Below are positions 24,696-64,000 of a stretch of 64,000 nucleotides of DNA, piece by piece. The position numbers were made by a program, and so were the translations under genes. This DNA is from Paenibacillus albus (lineage in GTDB: Bacteria; Bacillota; Bacilli; Paenibacillales; Paenibacillaceae). Position 1 is the stretch's first letter. The number at the start of each line of letters is the position of its first letter. The notes under the pieces are model-generated. The model was not told the origin of the DNA. It worked only from the letters and a program-made list of their open reading frames with translations, and did not search any database. The DNA lies in contig NZ_CP034437.1 of assembly GCF_003952225.1 (NCBI RefSeq), forward strand, positions 1,531,501 through 1,595,500, read 5' to 3'.

Positions 24696-25904
24696 ATGAC
24701 GAAAGCGAATCAGAACCATCCGCTCGATGCAGTCATTGTGTCGGCGGTTCGAACGGCTGTCGGCAAGGCGAAGAAGGGCAGCCTTGCCGATACGAGAGCC
24801 GAAGATTTAGGGCGCGCGGTGCTGCGCGCGGCAGTTGACCGCGTCCCCGGACTTGCATACGGGGATGTGCAGGATGTTGTCATCGGCTGCGCGATGCCCG
24901 AAGGGGAGCAAGGCCTTAACTTTGCCCGCATCATGACGCTGTATGCGGGCTTTCCGGTGACGACGCCGGCCGTCACCGTCAATCGGTTTTGCGCCTCCGG
25001 CCTGCAGGCGATTGCCTATGCCGCGGAGCGCATCCGGCTCGGCGAGGCGGAAGTCGTGCTCGCCGGAGGCGTCGAAAGCATGAGCCACGTCCCGATGACT
25101 GGCTTCAAGCTTTCGCCGCATCCCGGCATCGCCGATGCCATGCCGGAGGTGTACATGGGCATGGGGCATACCGCCGAGGAAGTCGCGAGGCGGTATGGGA
25201 TTAGCCGCGAAGCGCAGGATGCTTTTGCGGCGGCGAGCCATGCGAAAGCGGCGGCAGCGCAGGCAGCCGGCCGCTTCTCGGAGGAGATCGTTCCGCTGCA
25301 TGTGCAGCGCGAAGGCGTCGACGACAACGGCCGCCCTTGGTCGCGCAGCTTCGTGTTCGACAGCGACGAAGGCGTGCGCGCCGATACGACGCCGGAGGTG
25401 CTCGTGAAGCTGAAGCCATCCTTCGCGCGCGAAGGCACCGTCACCGCGGGCAACGCCTCGCAGATGAGCGACGGCGCGGCGGCCGTCGTCATCATGAGCC
25501 GCGAACGAGCGGAGCAGCTCGGCGTGAAGCCGCTCGCGGTGTTCCGCGCGTACAGCGTCGCCGGCGTCGCGCCGGAAGTGATGGGGATCGGCCCGATCGA
25601 GGCGATCCCGAAGGCGCTGGCGCGCGCGAGTGTGGGACTCGAACAGGTGAAGCTGTTCGAGCTGAACGAGGCCTTCGCGGCGCAATGCCTGCCGATCGTT
25701 CAGCGGCTCGGGATCAACCCCGAGCTCGTGAACGTGAACGGCGGCGCGATCGCGCTTGGCCATCCGCTCGGCTGCACGGGGACGAAGCTCAGCGTCTCCC
25801 TGATCCACGAGCTGCAGCGCCGCGGCGGCGGCTTCGGCATGGTCTCCATGTGCGTCGGCGGCGGCATGGGCGCCGCGGGCGTGTTTGAGGTTCCTCCGGC
25901 TTAG
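24696..25904 (+). CDS. fadA: Acetyl-CoA acyltransferase (3-ketoacyl-CoA thiolase)
   Basis: FadA cleaves 3-ketoacyl-CoA with CoA, releasing acetyl-CoA. The nucleophilic cysteine is in NRFCASGLQAI (about residue 97). The catalytic His and second Cys are in GGAIALGHPLGCTG and MCVGGGMGAAGVFE. AAGGAGGTGA precedes the ATG. The middle of the gene is very GC-rich compared with its neighbours. The usual fadN-fadA-fadE order is kept, but a 51-bp tandem repeat array of about 450 bases separates fadA from fadE. Confidence 0.94.
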   Translation: MTKANQNHPLDAVIVSAVRTAVGKAKKGSLADTRAEDLGRAVLRAAVDRVPGLAYGDVQDVVIGCAMPEGEQGLNFARIMTLYAGFPVTTPAVTVNRFCASGLQAIAYAAERIRLGEAEVVLAGGVESMSHVPMTGFKLSPHPGIADAMPEVYMGMGHTAEEVARRYGISREAQDAFAAASHAKAAAAQAAGRFSEEIVPLHVQREGVDDNGRPWSRSFVFDSDEGVRADTTPEVLVKLKPSFAREGTVTAGNASQMSDGAAAVVIMSRERAEQLGVKPLAVFRAYSVAGVAPEVMGIGPIEAIPKALARASVGLEQVKLFELNEAFAAQCLPIVQRLGINPELVNVNGGAIALGHPLGCTGTKLSVSLIHELQRRGGGFGMVSMCVGGGMGAAGVFEVPPA

Positions 25905-25911
25905 AGGAGTG

Positions 25912-26365
25912 GTACCCTGTACCACACATTGGCGAAAAAAACGATTAGATTAGCCCAAGAGGCGTACCAGCTACCCCACTTTATTGTCGCACGAACGTAA
26001 GAAGCTGGTTTGGTGGACCACATCGGCGGAAATCCGCTCAAACGAGCATAAGTAGCTGGTTTACTGGACCACATTGGTGGATATCTGGCCCAACGAGAGA
26101 AAGTAGCTGGTTTGGTGGACCACATCGGCGGAAATCCGCTCAAACGAGCATAAGTAGCTGGTTTACTGTACCACATTGGTGGAAATCTGGCGCAACGAGA
26201 GAAAGTAGCTGGTCTGGTGGACCACATTAGCGGAAATCCGCCATATCGAGCGCAAGTAGCTGGTTTGGTGGACTACATCAACGAAAAGAGAATCCCCCAG
26301 GGATCTACATTAGCGGAAAACCGGCAATTCGGCCCAAAGAGAATCCCCCAGGGATCTACATGGTT
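25912..26365. repeat. 51-bp tandem repeat array, locus 1
   Basis: About eight to nine units lie between fadA and fadE with a 51-base period, for example AGCTGG at 26003, 26054 and 26105. Units begin with GTAGCTGGTTTGGTGGACCA or GAATCCCCCAGGGATCTACA and share an ACATT-(T)GGCGGAAATCCG tail. A second-order 102-bp alternation is visible (units 1 and 3 alike, 2 and 4 alike). The final two units (heads at 26290 and 26341) carry the GGGATCTACA head. The same family occurs at 38330 and 56475. No gene is supported here. Confidence 0.85.
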
Positions 26366-26449
26366 TGATTCCAATCAATCCGTCAGTTAGTTGAATATCA
26401 CTTCCGTTACACTGTCACTCGTGCTTCTCCTAGAAAGGAGTGAATAAAT

Positions 26450-28243
26450 ATGGCGCAAAACAATCGTTGGGGCGGGCGCTTCGTGGTGGAGGATATTACG
26501 CCGGATGCAATCGTCACGCCGGAGGACTTCACCGATGAGCAGCGGATGATCGCGGATGCGGCGCGCGCTTTTCTCGCGGGTGAGGTACGACCGCGCGATG
26601 CGGAAATTGAGGCGCTCAATTATGAGCTCACCACGCAGCTGCTGCGCAAGGCCGGTGACCTCGGCCTGCTAGGCGCGGATGTGCCGGAGGCTTATGGCGG
26701 CCTCGGCCTCGACAAAGTGAGCTCGACGCTGCTCGCCGAGACGTTCTCCGAGGCGTCCTCGTTCGCGCTCTCGATCGGCGCGCACGTTGGCATCGGAACG
26801 CTGCCAATCGTCTTCTTCGGCACGCCAGAGCAGAAGCAGCGCTACTTGCCGGATCTTGCCACCGCCAAGCGAATCGCTGCGTACTGCCTGACGGAACCGG
26901 CATCCGGCTCCGACGCGCTCGGCGCGCGGACGACGGCGCGGCTGTCGCCGGACGGCAAGCATTACATCTTGAACGGCTCTAAGCTGTACATTACGAACTC
27001 TGGCTTCGCCGATGTGTTCATCGTGTACGCGAAGGTGAACGGGGACCATTTTACCGCATTCATTGTGGAGCGCGGCTACCCGGGCTTTAGCATCGGACCG
27101 GAGGAGCACAAGATGGGCATCAAGGGCTCATCGACCTGCCCAATCTTCTTCGAGGATACGCCGGTGCCTGTGGAGAACGTGCTCGGCGAGATTGGCAAAG
27201 GCCATCTTATCGCATTCAACATACTCAATATCGGACGCTTCAAGCTCGCAGCAGGCTGCGTCGGCGGTGCGAAGGAAACGATCGGACTCTCTTCCAAATA
27301 CGCGAACCAGCGCAAGCAGTTCGGTCGCTCGATCTCCTCTTTTCCGCTCATCGGGGCAAAGCTGGCGGATATGAATATTGCCACCTATGTACTGGAGAGC
27401 ATGGTGTACCGCACGGCTGGCTGGATCGACGCGCTGCTGCAAGAGAGTGAAGCGGAAGGCGGCACGGACGAGAATGCGGGAGCCCGCGCAGCCAAAGCGA
27501 TATCCGAATACGCGCTTGAATGCTCGATCAACAAAGTATTCGCAACCGAAGTGCTCGACCACGTTGCGGACGAAGGGGTTCAAATTCACGGCGGCTACGG
27601 CTACATTCGCGAATACAAGGTGGAGCGGATTTACCGGGATTCGCGGATTAACCGGATTTTTGAAGGGACGAATGAGATTAACCGAATGCTTATTCCAGGC
27701 ACGCTCATGAAAAAAGCGCTCAAAGGCGAGCTGCCGCTCCTGCGCAAAGCACGCGCACTCCAAGCGGAGCTGCTGCAGCCGATGCCGCTTCCTTCGTTCG
27801 ATGAGCCGCTCTCCAAGGAGACGTACCGGGTCCAGCAAGCGAAGAAAATCTTTCTTGCAGTCGGCGGCCTTGCGGTGCAGAAGTATGGGCTCGCGCTCGA
27901 ACAGCAGCAGGAAGTGCTCTGCCTGCTTGCAGATATGATGATCCAAGTGTTCGCGATGGAAAGCGCCAGCCTCCGCACGCGCAAAATGCTTCAAAAAGCC
28001 GATCCGGCCGCCGCGGCCCGCATCAAAAATGCAACTGAAATGACAGTTGTTTTCGTGCAAGAAGCGATGGAACGGGTTGAACGTTACGCGAAGACGGCGC
28101 TGTCTGCACTAGAGGAAGGCGATTCGCTCCAAACGCAGCTCTCGGTGCTGAAGAAGCTGACGCGCGCGCCGCTCTCCGATACCATCGCGCTCAAACGCGG
28201 CATTGCCGCTCGTGTCATCCGCAGCGAACAGTACACGTTGTAG
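26450..28243 (+). CDS. fadE: Acyl-CoA dehydrogenase
   Basis: FadE makes the first oxidation of beta-oxidation, reducing its FAD and passing electrons to EtfAB. The signature YCLTEPASGSDALGARTTA (FAD/substrate loop), QFGRSISSFPLIGAKLADM and GGYGYIREYKVERIYRDSRI with FEGTNEINRML are all present. At 597 residues it carries the C-terminal helical extension seen in Bacillus FadE (about 594). GAAAGGAG precedes the ATG. lcfA starts 18 bases downstream. Confidence 0.93.
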   Translation: MAQNNRWGGRFVVEDITPDAIVTPEDFTDEQRMIADAARAFLAGEVRPRDAEIEALNYELTTQLLRKAGDLGLLGADVPEAYGGLGLDKVSSTLLAETFSEASSFALSIGAHVGIGTLPIVFFGTPEQKQRYLPDLATAKRIAAYCLTEPASGSDALGARTTARLSPDGKHYILNGSKLYITNSGFADVFIVYAKVNGDHFTAFIVERGYPGFSIGPEEHKMGIKGSSTCPIFFEDTPVPVENVLGEIGKGHLIAFNILNIGRFKLAAGCVGGAKETIGLSSKYANQRKQFGRSISSFPLIGAKLADMNIATYVLESMVYRTAGWIDALLQESEAEGGTDENAGARAAKAISEYALECSINKVFATEVLDHVADEGVQIHGGYGYIREYKVERIYRDSRINRIFEGTNEINRMLIPGTLMKKALKGELPLLRKARALQAELLQPMPLPSFDEPLSKETYRVQQAKKIFLAVGGLAVQKYGLALEQQQEVLCLLADMMIQVFAMESASLRTRKMLQKADPAAAARIKNATEMTVVFVQEAMERVERYAKTALSALEEGDSLQTQLSVLKKLTRAPLSDTIALKRGIAARVIRSEQYTL

Positions 28244-38258: not shown

Positions 38259-38329
38259 TGGGAGGGCCGCCTTGTGGATGCAGGGCGGCTCTTTTGTTTG
38301 GGTCGAGGGAGGGTTTTGATGGGAATGTG

Positions 38330-38770
38330 AATGTAGATCCCGTAGGGATCTACATTAGCGAAAAAGTATCGAAATTGTGGAATGTGGATCCCCTGGGGAT
38401 CTACATTGCCGAAAAAGTATCGAAATCGGGTAATGTGAATCCCCTAGGGATCTACATTATGAATACAAACTCAGCGAGGCTGGCGCATGAAGGGAAAGAA
38501 GCTGGTTTGGTGGACTACATTGGTGGAAATCCGGTGGAGTTGGGGGAGGAAGCTGGATTGGTGGACTACATGGATGGAAATCCGGGGGAGTAGAGGGAAA
38601 GAAGCTGGTTAGGTGGACTACATGAGTGGAAATCCGGTGGAGTTGGGGGAAAGAAGCTGGTTTGGTGGACTACATGGGTGGAAATCCGGCGGAGTAGAGG
38701 GAAAGAAGCTGGTTTGGTGGACTACATAGGTGGAAATCCGGTGGAGTTGGGGGAAGAAGCCCAAGTGAGG
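38330..38770. repeat. 51-bp tandem repeat array, locus 2
   Basis: About eight units of 51-52 bases fill the gap between the ABC-F gene and dps. The first three have GGGATCTACATT heads. The first is a perfect dyad, AATGTAGATCCC (38330-38341) mirrored by GGGATCTACATT (38345-38356). The rest begin AAGAAGCTGGTTTGGTGGAC with tails TACAT-GGTGGAAATCCGGTGG. The same head types occur at 25912 and 56475. No gene is supported. Confidence 0.85.
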
Positions 38771-43402: not shown

Positions 43403-44374
43403 CTAGCCTTGCTGCTCAGCCTCTTCCAAGCGCTGAAGCGCTTCGAGGTTGTTCTCGATGACTTCCGGGTATGGCTGGAAGTTTCCATCGTCATTGCGCG
43501 GCGTGCCAATTGGGCCAACGACAAGCTCAAGGCCAACAGTGTCGCCGGATTGAACAGGGAAGTAAATCAGCGATTCCGGAACACGGCGTCCGTTGAGGCT
43601 GAGAATCGTATCGGTGCTGCCGGCAATCACGACACCGTTAACGGAGACGATCCGTCCGTTATTGTTGATGCGAACGACGCCTGTCGAGTTAAGCGCCTGT
43701 GCGATGTTCATGCCCGGGAAGTGTCTCACGCGGTACGAGTTCGTAATCCACGGGAAGAAACGTCCGCCGTTGATGAATACCGCTACGAAGCCGCCAGGGA
43801 ATGGTCCTGGTGGAAATCCACCGCCAGGCGGGAATGGGATCGGAATCGGAATCGGCACAGGGAACGGTCCAGGCGGGAATGGGCCGGGGCCTGGGAATGG
43901 CGGAGGAGGGAAGCCTCCAGGACCGCCAGGGAATGGTGGGGGTGGGAAACCGCCGGGACCGCCGGGACCGCCAGGGAATCCACCGGGACCGCCAGGGAAT
44001 CCACCGGGACCGCCGGGTCCGCCAGGGAATCCGCCGGGACCACCGGGACCACCAGGGAATCCGCCCGAACCGCCAGGTCCGCCAGGGAATCCACCGGGTC
44101 CCCCAGGCATACCAGGGAATCCTGGACCACCGGGACCGCCGGGTCCGCCAGGCATACCAGGTCCACCGGGACCGCCAGGAAATCCACCAGGTCCACCAGG
44201 TCCACCAGGCATACCAGGGAATCCTGGGCCACCAGGTCCACCTGGCATTCCACCGGGTCCGCCCGGCATGCCCATGCCGCCGCCTGGCAAGCCCGGGAAC
44301 ATGCGCGGACCGCCGCATCCGCAATCGCGAGAGTAGCCTTCAGGCATGCCTGGAATATATGCGTAAGTACTCAT
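43403..44374 (-). CDS. Collagen-like Gly-X-Y repeat protein
   Basis: After a short Cys-containing start (MSTYAYIPGMPEGYSRDCGC), about 120 residues are uninterrupted G-x-x triplets rich in GPGG, GFP and GMP, followed by a Pro/Phe-rich bridge (FPPGPFPVPIPIPIPFPP). A folded C-terminal domain of about 130 residues comes last (FVAVFINGGRFFPWI, NNNGRIVSVNGVVIAG, PVQSGDTVGLELVVG). There is no signal peptide, as in many spore-surface (BclA-like) proteins made in the mother cell; exosporium location is inference. AAAGGAG precedes the ATG. The repeat DNA is itself a minisatellite and may vary in length. Confidence 0.8.
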   Translation of the reverse strand: MSTYAYIPGMPEGYSRDCGCGGPRMFPGLPGGGMGMPGGPGGMPGGPGGPGFPGMPGGPGGPGGFPGGPGGPGMPGGPGGPGGPGFPGMPGGPGGFPGGPGGSGGFPGGPGGPGGFPGGPGGPGGFPGGPGGFPGGPGGPGGFPPPPFPGGPGGFPPPPFPGPGPFPPGPFPVPIPIPIPFPPGGGFPPGPFPGGFVAVFINGGRFFPWITNSYRVRHFPGMNIAQALNSTGVVRINNNGRIVSVNGVVIAGSTDTILSLNGRRVPESLIYFPVQSGDTVGLELVVGPIGTPRNDDGNFQPYPEVIENNLEALQRLEEAEQQG

Positions 44375-56474: not shown

Positions 56475-57095
56475 GAAAGAGTCGGATTCGGAGAAAGAGA
56501 ATCCCTGAGGGATCTACATTGGTGGAGAAGCGGCGAATTCGGAGCAAGAGAATCCCTGAGGGATCTACATTGGTGGAGAAGCGGCGAATATGGAGCAAGA
56601 GAATCCCTGAGGGATCTACATTGGTAGAGAAGCGGCGAATATGGAGCAAGAGAATCCCTGAGGGATCTACATTGGTGGAGAATCGACGATTTCGGAGCTA
56701 GAGAATCCCCTGGGGATCCACATTGAAGTAAAACCGCTAGAAAAGGTGAAAGAGAGGTAGCCAGTACACCACATTGGCGAGAAATCGCACGAAAAGGTAA
56801 AAGAGATGTAGTGAGAACCCCACATTATGGGAAAACCGCTAGAATAGGTGAAAGAGAGGTAGCCAGTACCCCACATTGGCGTAAAACCGCTTGAAAAGGT
56901 AAAAGAGAGGTAGCGAGAACCCCACACTTGCAGAAATGCACCCAATCAAGCCAAAGTAGCTGGTCTACTGGACCTCCTTCGTCTGAAATCGCCCCTATCT
57001 AGCAAATGTAGCTGGTCGGACCTCCTTCGTCTAAAATCGCCCCTACCTAGCCCAAGTAGCTGCTCTACAGGACCTCCTTCACCGAGGTTCCGCTT
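56475..57095. repeat. 51-bp tandem repeat array, locus 3
   Basis: Five units begin AGAATCCCTGAGGGATCTAC with GAATCC at 56499, 56550, 56601, 56652 and 56703, exactly 51 bases apart. They are followed by about four units with CCACATT heads and GTAGCCAGTACCCCA joints, then two or three with GTAGCTGGTC and ACCTCCTTCGTCT. The tails (GGTGGAGAAGCGGCGAATTC; GGCGTAAAACCGCTTG) match those of the other arrays. The head type changes in blocks along the array. Confidence 0.85.
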
Positions 57096-63270: not shown

Positions 63271-64000
63271 ATGAGAATCAGTGGTGGCAAAATCCGTGTG
63301 CTCGTCGTGGACGATTCGTACATGGTGCGCCGCGTATTAGAGCAAGGGCTGTCCATGGACCCGGCGATTGAGGTCATTGGCACGGCGGAGGATCCTTTCG
63401 ATGCGCGGGACAAGATCGCCGCGCTCCGACCGGACGTCATGACCTGCGATATTGAGATGCCGCGAATGAACGGCATCGAATTCGTCCACCGGCTGCTGCC
63501 GCAATACTGGCTGCCGGTAATTATGGTCAGCTCCGTAGATGAGGCGGTATTCGACGCGCTGCAAGCAGGGGCAGTCGAGTTCGTTGCCAAGCCCGCCGGC
63601 TATGGGCTAAATGAGATTGAGCCGTTCATCGCTGAGGTCGCCGCGAAGATCAAGATTGCGGCACATGCGGCGAATGTATCCGCCGCATCGCTTGGTGCAG
63701 CTCGCGGCAAAGCGCAGCAGCCGGGCGGCATGGGGTGGCCTGTGGGGTGGGAGATGCAGGCAAAGGCGGATTTTGGCGGGAGTGCGGGGAAGAGTTTGAG
63801 TGCGAGTGCAAGTGCAAGTGCAAGTGCGAGTTCAAGAACGAGTTCAAGTTCAAATGCAAATGCAAATGCAAATGCAAGCGCGAGTGCCGGAGGGAGTTGC
63901 AAGTTGATTGCGATGGGCGCTTCCACCGGAGGGACAGAGGCGCTGACCACTGTGCTGCGGTCGCTGCCAGTGACGACGCCGGGCATCGTTATCGTACAGC
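63271..64000 (+). CDS. cheB: Chemotaxis methylesterase CheB, 3' truncated by window
   Basis: CheB demethylates receptors. The receiver has VLVVDDSYMVRRVLEQG with D60 as phosphate acceptor (TCDIEMPRMNG), and the methylesterase begins with the catalytic Ser in AMGASTGGTEAL (near residue 216). The linker between them (about residues 174-209) is low-complexity, made of Ser-Ala repeats and then Asn-Ala repeats encoded by AGTGCA and AATGCA hexanucleotides. The window ends inside the esterase domain. AAAGGGGGCGGAG precedes the ATG. Confidence 0.9.
   Translation, partial: MRISGGKIRVLVVDDSYMVRRVLEQGLSMDPAIEVIGTAEDPFDARDKIAALRPDVMTCDIEMPRMNGIEFVHRLLPQYWLPVIMVSSVDEAVFDALQAGAVEFVAKPAGYGLNEIEPFIAEVAAKIKIAAHAANVSAASLGAARGKAQQPGGMGWPVGWEMQAKADFGGSAGKSLSASASASASASSRTSSSSNANANANASASAGGSCKLIAMGASTGGTEALTTVLRSLPVTTPGIVIVQ
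63796..63890 (+). repeat. AGTGCA/AATGCA microsatellite in cheB
   Basis: Tandem AGTGCA-like then AATGCA-like hexamers encode the (SA)n and (NA)n linker. The six-base period preserves the frame when the copy number changes. Confidence 0.75.

Follow-up and report, generated by a model that had tools for sequence, protein, structure and literature searches.

Mostly replication-oriented 51-bp repeat arrays in Paenibacillus albus and its relatives suggest an undescribed kind of chromosome marker

A tandem array of 51-bp units (array 1) lies between a fadA-like and a fadE-like gene of Paenibacillus albus, in a 64,000-nucleotide stretch of its chromosome (NZ_CP034437.1, positions 1,531,501 to 1,595,500; hereafter the window). 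It is one of at least 34 such array loci in the 6.63-Mb genome, and at 34 of 34 the asymmetric frame of the unit lies on the leading strand of replication. Arrays of this kind, mostly oriented with replication, suggest an undescribed kind of chromosome marker. Dispersed bacterial repeats known so far are, to our knowledge, recognized by sequence; in the 51-bp family, spacing, flanks, symmetry, and orientation are kept while the core is replaced between species, even at the same locus in the case compared. Core turnover at fixed geometry marks the geometry as the target of selection or of a copying machinery. The arrays thus offer a genetic handle on what reads replication direction in DNA, together with a simple search pattern for the family. 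No published description of the repeat was recognized in the literature searched, which is weak evidence, as most subscription journals lay outside the scope of that search.

All head classes fit one polar frame, namely, AAAGA, a 17-bp dyad core, ACAT, and a tail of about 25 bp, with a period of 51 bp; in leading-strand orientation it reads AAAGA, 16 bases, (T/C)ACAT, about 25 bases, and the next AAAGA. Across 211 distinct units of the P. albus genome, the flank columns are near invariant and most core columns are variable; these units were selected by the frame itself with one mismatch allowed, so the invariance of the flanks is partly built in. Conservation of the frame is independent of unit picking, since a two-unit lattice pattern that consists of exact flanks and exact 51-bp spacing, with no core sequence, has 54 matches in the genome. 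Class A cores (AGCTGGT-TTG-GTGGACT) are also present reverse-complemented within an unchanged frame, and identical cores are joined to different tails in separate arrays of the genome. A first-pass annotation of the window had described modular heads and tails, and head classes are indeed joined to tails in this way at several sites; the polar frame, the orientation with replication, the helical phasing, and the species-specific cores had escaped it. A rule seen by eye, in which the first head of an array would read AATGT...ACATT and the last AAAGA...TCTTT, was abandoned, as the ordinary type with AAAGA and ACATT accounts for 70 of the 82 first heads and 65 of the 82 last.

The lattice pattern was found in 20 of 394 genomes of the family, all of them in this genus (12/22) or in one second genus (8/37), and its reversed control in none of the 394; the counts are lower bounds, because only exact flanks and exact 51-bp spacing are found. 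A model built by sequence only from 24 window units (R1) gave 32 matches in the window and at least 152 in the genome at an E value of ≤1, with 150 of 1625 first-look candidates scored. These genome matches and the empty reversed control place the array beyond chance. Among 59 relatives, with P. albus counted, R1 matched 12, all in this genus; compared with the lattice pattern, it adds G003 and misses G015. A recent local expansion, raised as a possibility in the first-pass annotation, does not fit this spread, and as far as tested the units match no described family. Frame and spacing are kept across the two genera while the cores differ, with species-specific examples such as GCGGTAC-GAG-GTACCGT (G005), GACGTAC-CCC-GTACGTC (G075), and GGCTCAA-AAT-TTGAGCT (G092). 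Some of the 34 P. albus loci are weak, consisting of one or two heads (2267, 2349, 2864, and 3078 kb), and a match within an apparent gene at 3.64 Mb (L052) is not counted among them; the set of 30 arrays used below excludes that match and also four later-found loci (1616, 1887, 2349, and 6338 kb). A BLAST search of the array against plasmids and phages gave no match, and the sole lattice match on a viral contig lies inside an open reading frame (ORF) and was taken as chance. In one relative, G002 (9% contamination), contigs C1 and C35 carry the same arrays in opposite orientation; this assembly probably holds a second strain or a duplicate, with inflated array counts, and its polarity was read from C1 only.

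Orientation was read against the mapped origin in P. albus, where dnaA lies at 790 kb and the GC skew changes sign at 0.67 to 0.90 Mb and at 4.02 to 4.20 Mb. At the loci at 519, 594, 5152, and 6107 kb, R1, which represents one class A orientation, hit the opposite strand in most cases; the core at these loci is flipped, with the frame still on the leading strand by the frame patterns. A matrix of the frame alone gave 211 leading-strand matches over the 30 arrays versus 36 weak lagging-strand matches, the latter owing to the partial symmetry of the heads, and a relaxed lattice search with no trained model placed every match on the leading strand among the matches listed (100 of 148). In nine genomes of relatives in the genus, the frame agrees with the sign of the local GC skew in 57 of 62 arrays, or in 55 of 60 without L180 and L188, where the hits were split evenly between the strands and minus was assigned. 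Sixty regions of relatives were taken, three of which held no cluster (L136, L150, and L190), and the loci of G071 and G094 were left out. Agreement was found for 16 of 21 arrays in six genomes of the second genus, and for 12 of 13 where the skew size is at least 0.03, a cut chosen post hoc. In convergent gaps the frame lies on the leading strand in 15 of 15 P. albus arrays and agrees with local skew in 21/22 arrays of genus relatives and 5/5 of the second genus; transcription from the flanks is symmetric there, which ties the polarity to replication, not to transcription.

The cores carry dyad symmetry. Over seven symmetric pairs, 1267 of 2275 cells are Watson-Crick in the 325 distinct cores of the genus, versus 886 (standard deviation, 26) when the 3′ halves are shuffled; the 51 cores of the second genus give 255 of 357, versus 160 (standard deviation, 10). 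No shuffle of 1000 equaled the observed value in either genus. The pair cells are not independent, because cores within an array or a species are related, and class A by itself is weakly symmetric.

Spacing and composition both show a helical period. Steps between units are mostly 51 bp and some 52 bp, which is about five helical turns, and the odd steps (more than 2 bp off a multiple of 51 and shorter than 100 bp) lie near 31 to 33, 40 to 43, 58 to 65, 71 to 75, 82 to 84, and 93 to 94 bp, with few between (46, 46, 48, 96, and 99). They cluster at multiples of about 10.4 bp: the Rayleigh R at 10.35 bp is 0.45 in P. albus (n = 17; P ~ 0.03) and 0.57 in relatives (n = 21; P ~ 0.001), and the best period for all 38 odd spacings in the range of 7 to 16 bp is 10.5, a fit equaled in 2 of 5000 random draws. 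Within the unit, the 10.2-bp harmonic of A content is the largest of the first twelve in both genera (P = 0.002 and 0.004, by a column permutation that ignores runs). G content peaks at the same harmonic, and A+T in the second genus is slightly stronger at 8.5 bp than at 10.2 bp. The two periodicities are not independent, since a 10-bp internal period could itself yield 10-bp indels. The phasing points to protein-bound duplex DNA rather than RNA, though a mismatch test of the cores (below) is mixed.

Arrays occupy particular gaps in P. albus. Of the 30 arrays, 15 lie in convergent gaps, 10 in gaps codirectional with the frame, 3 in gaps codirectional against it, and 2 in divergent gaps, where 358 background gaps of 60 to 1200 bp from the same regions gave 62, 175, 38, and 83, respectively. 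ORFs were called by length alone and some calls are doubtful; a looser cut gave 16, 9, 5, and 0. In relatives within the genus, the counts in the same order are 22, 24, 7, and 6 for 59 arrays (three of 62 could not be placed), and in the second genus 5, 4, 7, and 5 for 21 arrays. The stretch of the P. albus genome from 3.435 to 5.153 Mb, which holds the skew flip at about 4.1 Mb, yielded no locus (P ~ 0.0005 for 34 loci and 0.006 for 23 clusters under a uniform null), and the nearest loci found are at least 0.67 Mb from the flip opposite dnaA; the searches scored a limited number of candidates or required exact matches, and diverged arrays may escape them. Seven control stretches of 20 kb each, located from 3.8 to 5.02 Mb, contained no 51-bp tandem array, and one had a 45-bp repeat. 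Gene families recurring beside arrays were compared in three sets, in which the largest groups drew on many loci and were not named by family search; none stood out as array specific.

Loci persist between species while their contents turn over. For at least 10 of the 30 P. albus arrays, a relative has an array with two or more of the same flanking ORFs (part of the relatives' arrays were compared): ten pairs with the close relative G018, six with G011, and one with G002. Two adjacent P. albus arrays in L058 pair with one same array in each relative. At the two loci compared across species, copy number, cores, and tails all differ. The fad array spans about 1.2 kb in G018 with other head classes, and the array at 6.107 Mb has different cores in G011 and G002. 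The first-pass annotation held that array 1 interrupts a compact gene run, and the relatives bear this out: the fadA-fadE gap measures 4 bp in both G009 and G010, 45 in G001, 95 in G021, and 123 in G005, versus 545 in P. albus and 1398 in G018. By eye, the same gap holds a different palindromic repeat, of the AAATGTTGCA...GCAACATTT type, in G014 (L112) and G004 (L116), and yet another repeat, of about 41 bp, in G017 (L118).

We tentatively favor, among the explanations considered, that array 1 is one of a family of arrays that serve chromosome organization as polar binding sites on double-stranded DNA. Each unit would present its 17-bp inverted-repeat core to a dimeric protein, with the fixed asymmetric flanks, AAAGA upstream and ACAT downstream, giving the site its direction; five-turn spacing would put the sites on one face of the helix, and the phased A content may make the array easy to bend or wrap. 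Many like sites could carry a nucleoprotein patch that assembles cooperatively and in one direction, in most cases at gene 3′ ends. The frame keeps to the leading strand even in gaps with symmetric flanking transcription, so the partner is most likely one that travels in, or is loaded with, the direction of replication; the replisome, an SMC-type loader, and a DNA translocase are candidates. Persistence of loci with turnover of cores would mean that presence and geometry are maintained while protein specificity changes. The lattice, polarity, symmetry, placement, and persistence hold to the extent stated above; binding, bending, and function are putative and read from sequence. Possible, though we lean against it, is the wider claim of a new class of chromosome element, a replication-polar lattice defined by its geometry (five-turn spacing, AAAGA and ACAT flanks, and dyad core) and not by core sequence, whose readers would be dimeric DNA-binding proteins of a rapidly diversifying family and which would provide directional, helically phased landmarks outside the terminus.

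Several observations weigh against the binding-array interpretation. Ten of 22 genomes in the genus and 29 of 37 in the second genus have no lattice match, so the lattice is dispensable or lost in many. Several unrelated classes of core coexist in P. albus (A, its reverse complement, B, and C), and one protein could hardly read them all. Neighbor-gene comparison found no binding protein and no array-linked gene. Convergent gaps are less strongly preferred in relatives within the genus, no such preference is seen in the second genus, and the absence of loci around the terminus could reflect lower GC or accessory content there. Five of the 62 arrays of relatives (in L153, L155, L157, L172, and L176) and 5 of the 21 in the second genus disagree with local skew; local GC skew partly follows gene strand, whereas the origin is mapped in P. 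albus, which makes that genome the stronger test of polarity. The phasing sample is small (38 spacings) and its 100-bp cut was set post hoc; without the cut, P is ~0.04 in P. albus (n = 20) and ~0.015 in relatives (n = 37). The conserved-column profile of the second genus has no significant 10.2-bp harmonic (P = 0.19). A mismatch test of the cores is mixed as well. Single-strand structure should retain G·T mismatches better than A·C, and over the inner six pairs of all cores in the genus G·T stands at 1.06 and A·C at 0.87 of expectation, as a single strand would predict. The corresponding values are 0.68 and 0.55 in the genus without class A, 0.61 and 0.89 in the second genus, 0.64 and 0.59 in both genera without class A and the outer pair, and 0.42 and 0.50 in the members of that last set that have four or more Watson-Crick pairs. 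No single-strand signature is clear overall, but class A pulls toward one in the genus.

The chief competing explanation is a selfish repeat coupled to replication, a dispersing minisatellite copied into 3′ intergenic gaps via exposed lagging-strand template, which would set its orientation, and expanded by slippage, with the geometry supplied by the copying machinery. We regard this as rather unlikely. It would account for the patchy presence in 12/22 and 8/37 genomes, for the same cores with different tails within one genome, for the scarcity of P. albus arrays in divergent, promoter-bearing gaps (2/30), and for the leading-strand polarity, which IS200/IS605-type elements also show. Helical phasing, however, suits duplex DNA and not a single strand, at least 10 of 30 arrays have flanking genes in common with a relative's array, and Y1 transposase (PF01797) was found in 0 of the 12 lattice-bearing genomes of this genus. 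Mobilization by a Y1 or RAYT enzyme was rejected for the genus, where PF01797 occurs in 1 of 22 genomes (G016, which lacks a lattice match); the search control was positive in 5 of 14 named genomes. It is less probable, and in our view improbable, that the array is a BIME-2-like topology element, a phased bendable array that would capture a wrapping enzyme, DNA gyrase or another, at sites where positive supercoils build up from convergent transcription and an incoming fork. The enrichment in convergent gaps (15/30 versus 62/358), the 10.2-bp phasing of A and of G at the same harmonic, and array lengths of up to several hundred base pairs agree with such a role, in which gyrase capture is putative. 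Yet species-specific 17-bp dyads and a fixed polar frame are not expected requirements of gyrase, nine or ten of the 30 arrays lie in codirectional gaps, and only 5 of 21 in the second genus are convergent.

Action at the RNA level, through hairpins of a transcribed array that terminate transcription or protect message 3′ ends, appears still less probable. The cores are palindromic, the arrays sit at 3′ ends, often directly past an intrinsic terminator (by eye, uncounted), two weak terminator-like sites occur on the minus strand of array 1 versus a mean of 0.7 in shuffles, and, with class A included, G·T mismatches in the genus are retained better than A·C. That preference disappears without class A and the outer pair and is not seen in the second genus. 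Polarity tracks replication in convergent gaps, where transcription is symmetric, and both flanking ORFs oppose the frame at 3 to 5 of the 30 loci, some of these on doubtful ORF calls. The first-pass annotation had proposed that the palindromic heads fold as RNA, which finds little backing: the commonest head of array 1, AGCTGGTTTGGTGGACT, is a poor palindrome, and folding of the 545-nucleotide gap barely exceeds that of shuffles (z of -1.57 and -1.94 on the two strands, with 6 and 4 of 100 shuffles folding as well). At gathering score, Rfam matched only a tRNA at 376-447 in the window and did not match the array. A repeat coding for 17 amino acids, remnant or active (frame AAA GAG ... TAC ATT), is scarcely credible. 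Fifty-one bases make 17 codons, and the frame is open through some arrays, e.g., near 2082.8 kb by eye; however, a stop interrupts the frame in 104 of 211 units, which is not below the level of column shuffles (mean, 95), differences between nearest units number 118, 66, and 107 at codon positions 1, 2, and 3, and 52-bp steps break the frame. The stops and the codon-position differences led us to reject it.

The 51-bp family falls within the broad kind of extragenic palindromic repeats. REP and BIME sequences (GTAG- and CGTC-tagged families) are described as many-copy short extragenic palindromes mainly in convergent and codirectional gaps, some in tandem and often species specific (PMC3733652). 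The 51-bp arrays are likewise extragenic, palindromic, and mainly in convergent or codirectional gaps in P. albus, more weakly so in relatives. They differ in their flanks, which are AAAGA and YACAT and include neither GTAG nor CGTC as a constant tag (GTAG is confined to some heads of a single class), in the lack of a Y1-type (RAYT) transposase in the 12 lattice-bearing genomes, and in their head-to-tail lattice, fixed frame with variable core, and replication polarity. Like the sites of the nucleoid occlusion proteins Noc and SlmA, which avoid the terminus, the arrays are spread around the chromosome and were not found near the terminus; those sites are single and non-polar with one consensus, whereas the arrays are tandem and polar, and one genome holds several core classes. 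KOPS, SRS, and Chi are short single polar motifs, common in genes and oriented with the leading strand, that are read by translocases or recombination enzymes, KOPS being densest toward the terminus. The arrays share that orientation but are long, phased, few, and intergenic, and were not found near the terminus. CRISPR arrays have identical repeats with unique spacers between them; the 51-bp arrays are also regularly spaced, with a partly palindromic 27-bp head, but their "spacer" (tail) repeats within the array, a comparison made by repeat structure alone with no cas gene search. The 51-bp family is set apart from the REP, CRISPR, and coding-repeat families because it lacks a tested defining feature of each, and the first-pass view that the repeat is not recognizable as REP or CRISPR stands on the features tested (tag, Y1 transposase, and unique spacers).

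Array 1 and the other arrays of the window are listed in Table 1. Tandem Repeats Finder reports array 1 at 25991-26278 with a period of 51 (5.6 copies, 76% matches) and fits it better from 25999 with a period of 102 (2.7 copies, 91% matches); with the anchors, this upholds the tandem array and the 102-bp alternation of the first-pass annotation. By the anchor CTACAT/CCACAT, eight good heads lie at 26018, 26069, 26120, 26171, 26222, 26273, 26305, and 26356 and two degenerate ones at 25922 and 25976. Head-to-head steps are, in order, 54, 42, five of 51, 32, and 51 bp, so the first-pass figure of exactly 51 bases holds for the main run and fails at the array start (54 and 42) and at the junction of head types, where the class B frame starts 32 bp past the preceding head. 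The system recurs, as had been noted, at two other sites. Array 2 has steps of 51 and 52 bp, with class A units mostly 52 bp apart, and lies in a convergent gap between genes for an ABC-transporter-type ATPase (+) and a ferritin-like protein (-). In array 3 the head class changes without breaking the 51-bp steps, and the degenerate end has steps of 48 and 52 bp.

Table 1. Arrays of 51-bp units in the window and the genes flanking array 1 (window positions)
Feature	Position	Strand	Description
fadA-fadE gap with array 1	25905..26449	+	545 bp; array placed at 25912-26365 in the first-pass annotation
Thiolase gene, fadA-like	24696-25904		5′ flank of array 1; Pfam
Acyl-CoA dehydrogenase gene, fadE-like	26450-28243		3′ flank of array 1; Pfam
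Array 1, degenerate start	25912..25997	+	Two heads; anchor placement
Array 1, main run	25998..26284	+	Six class A units (core AGCTGGT-NNN-NTGNACY); 51-bp steps, 102-bp alternation
Array 1, class A frame starts	25998, 26049, 26100, 26151, 26202, 26253	+	Last unit shortened by following head
Array 1, final two heads	26285..26362	+	Class B (core GAATCCC-CCA-GGGATCT); frame starts 26285, 26336
Array 2	38329..38760	+	Three class B heads with symmetric flanks AATGT...ACATT, then five class A units
Array 3	56486..57090 (end approximate)	+	Class B, then class C (e.g., GAGGTAGCCAGTACCCC), then degenerate class A-like units

Other repeats were seen in the window and elsewhere in the genome. Dense short-period repeats (9, 18, 21, 30, 36, 45, and 60 bp; CCACCGGGACC-like) occupy 43893-44269 of the window within overlapping ORFs and look like a glycine/proline-rich, collagen-like coding repeat, and the hexamer AGTGCA is repeated in tandem at 63799-63887 (14.8 copies, 80% matches). 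A 51-bp tandem repeat with five copies and an unrelated sequence (GGCGCTTGGCGCGGACGC...) lies at 6282051-6282303 of the genome (L060, 8052-8304), about 1.6 kb from a lattice array. Repeats of 112 to 113 bp at 601.6 kb (L038, 17096-17344) and 6586 kb (L062, 16590-16957) have in common, by eye, a GAGAG...TTTTCCC...CTCTC-like stretch.
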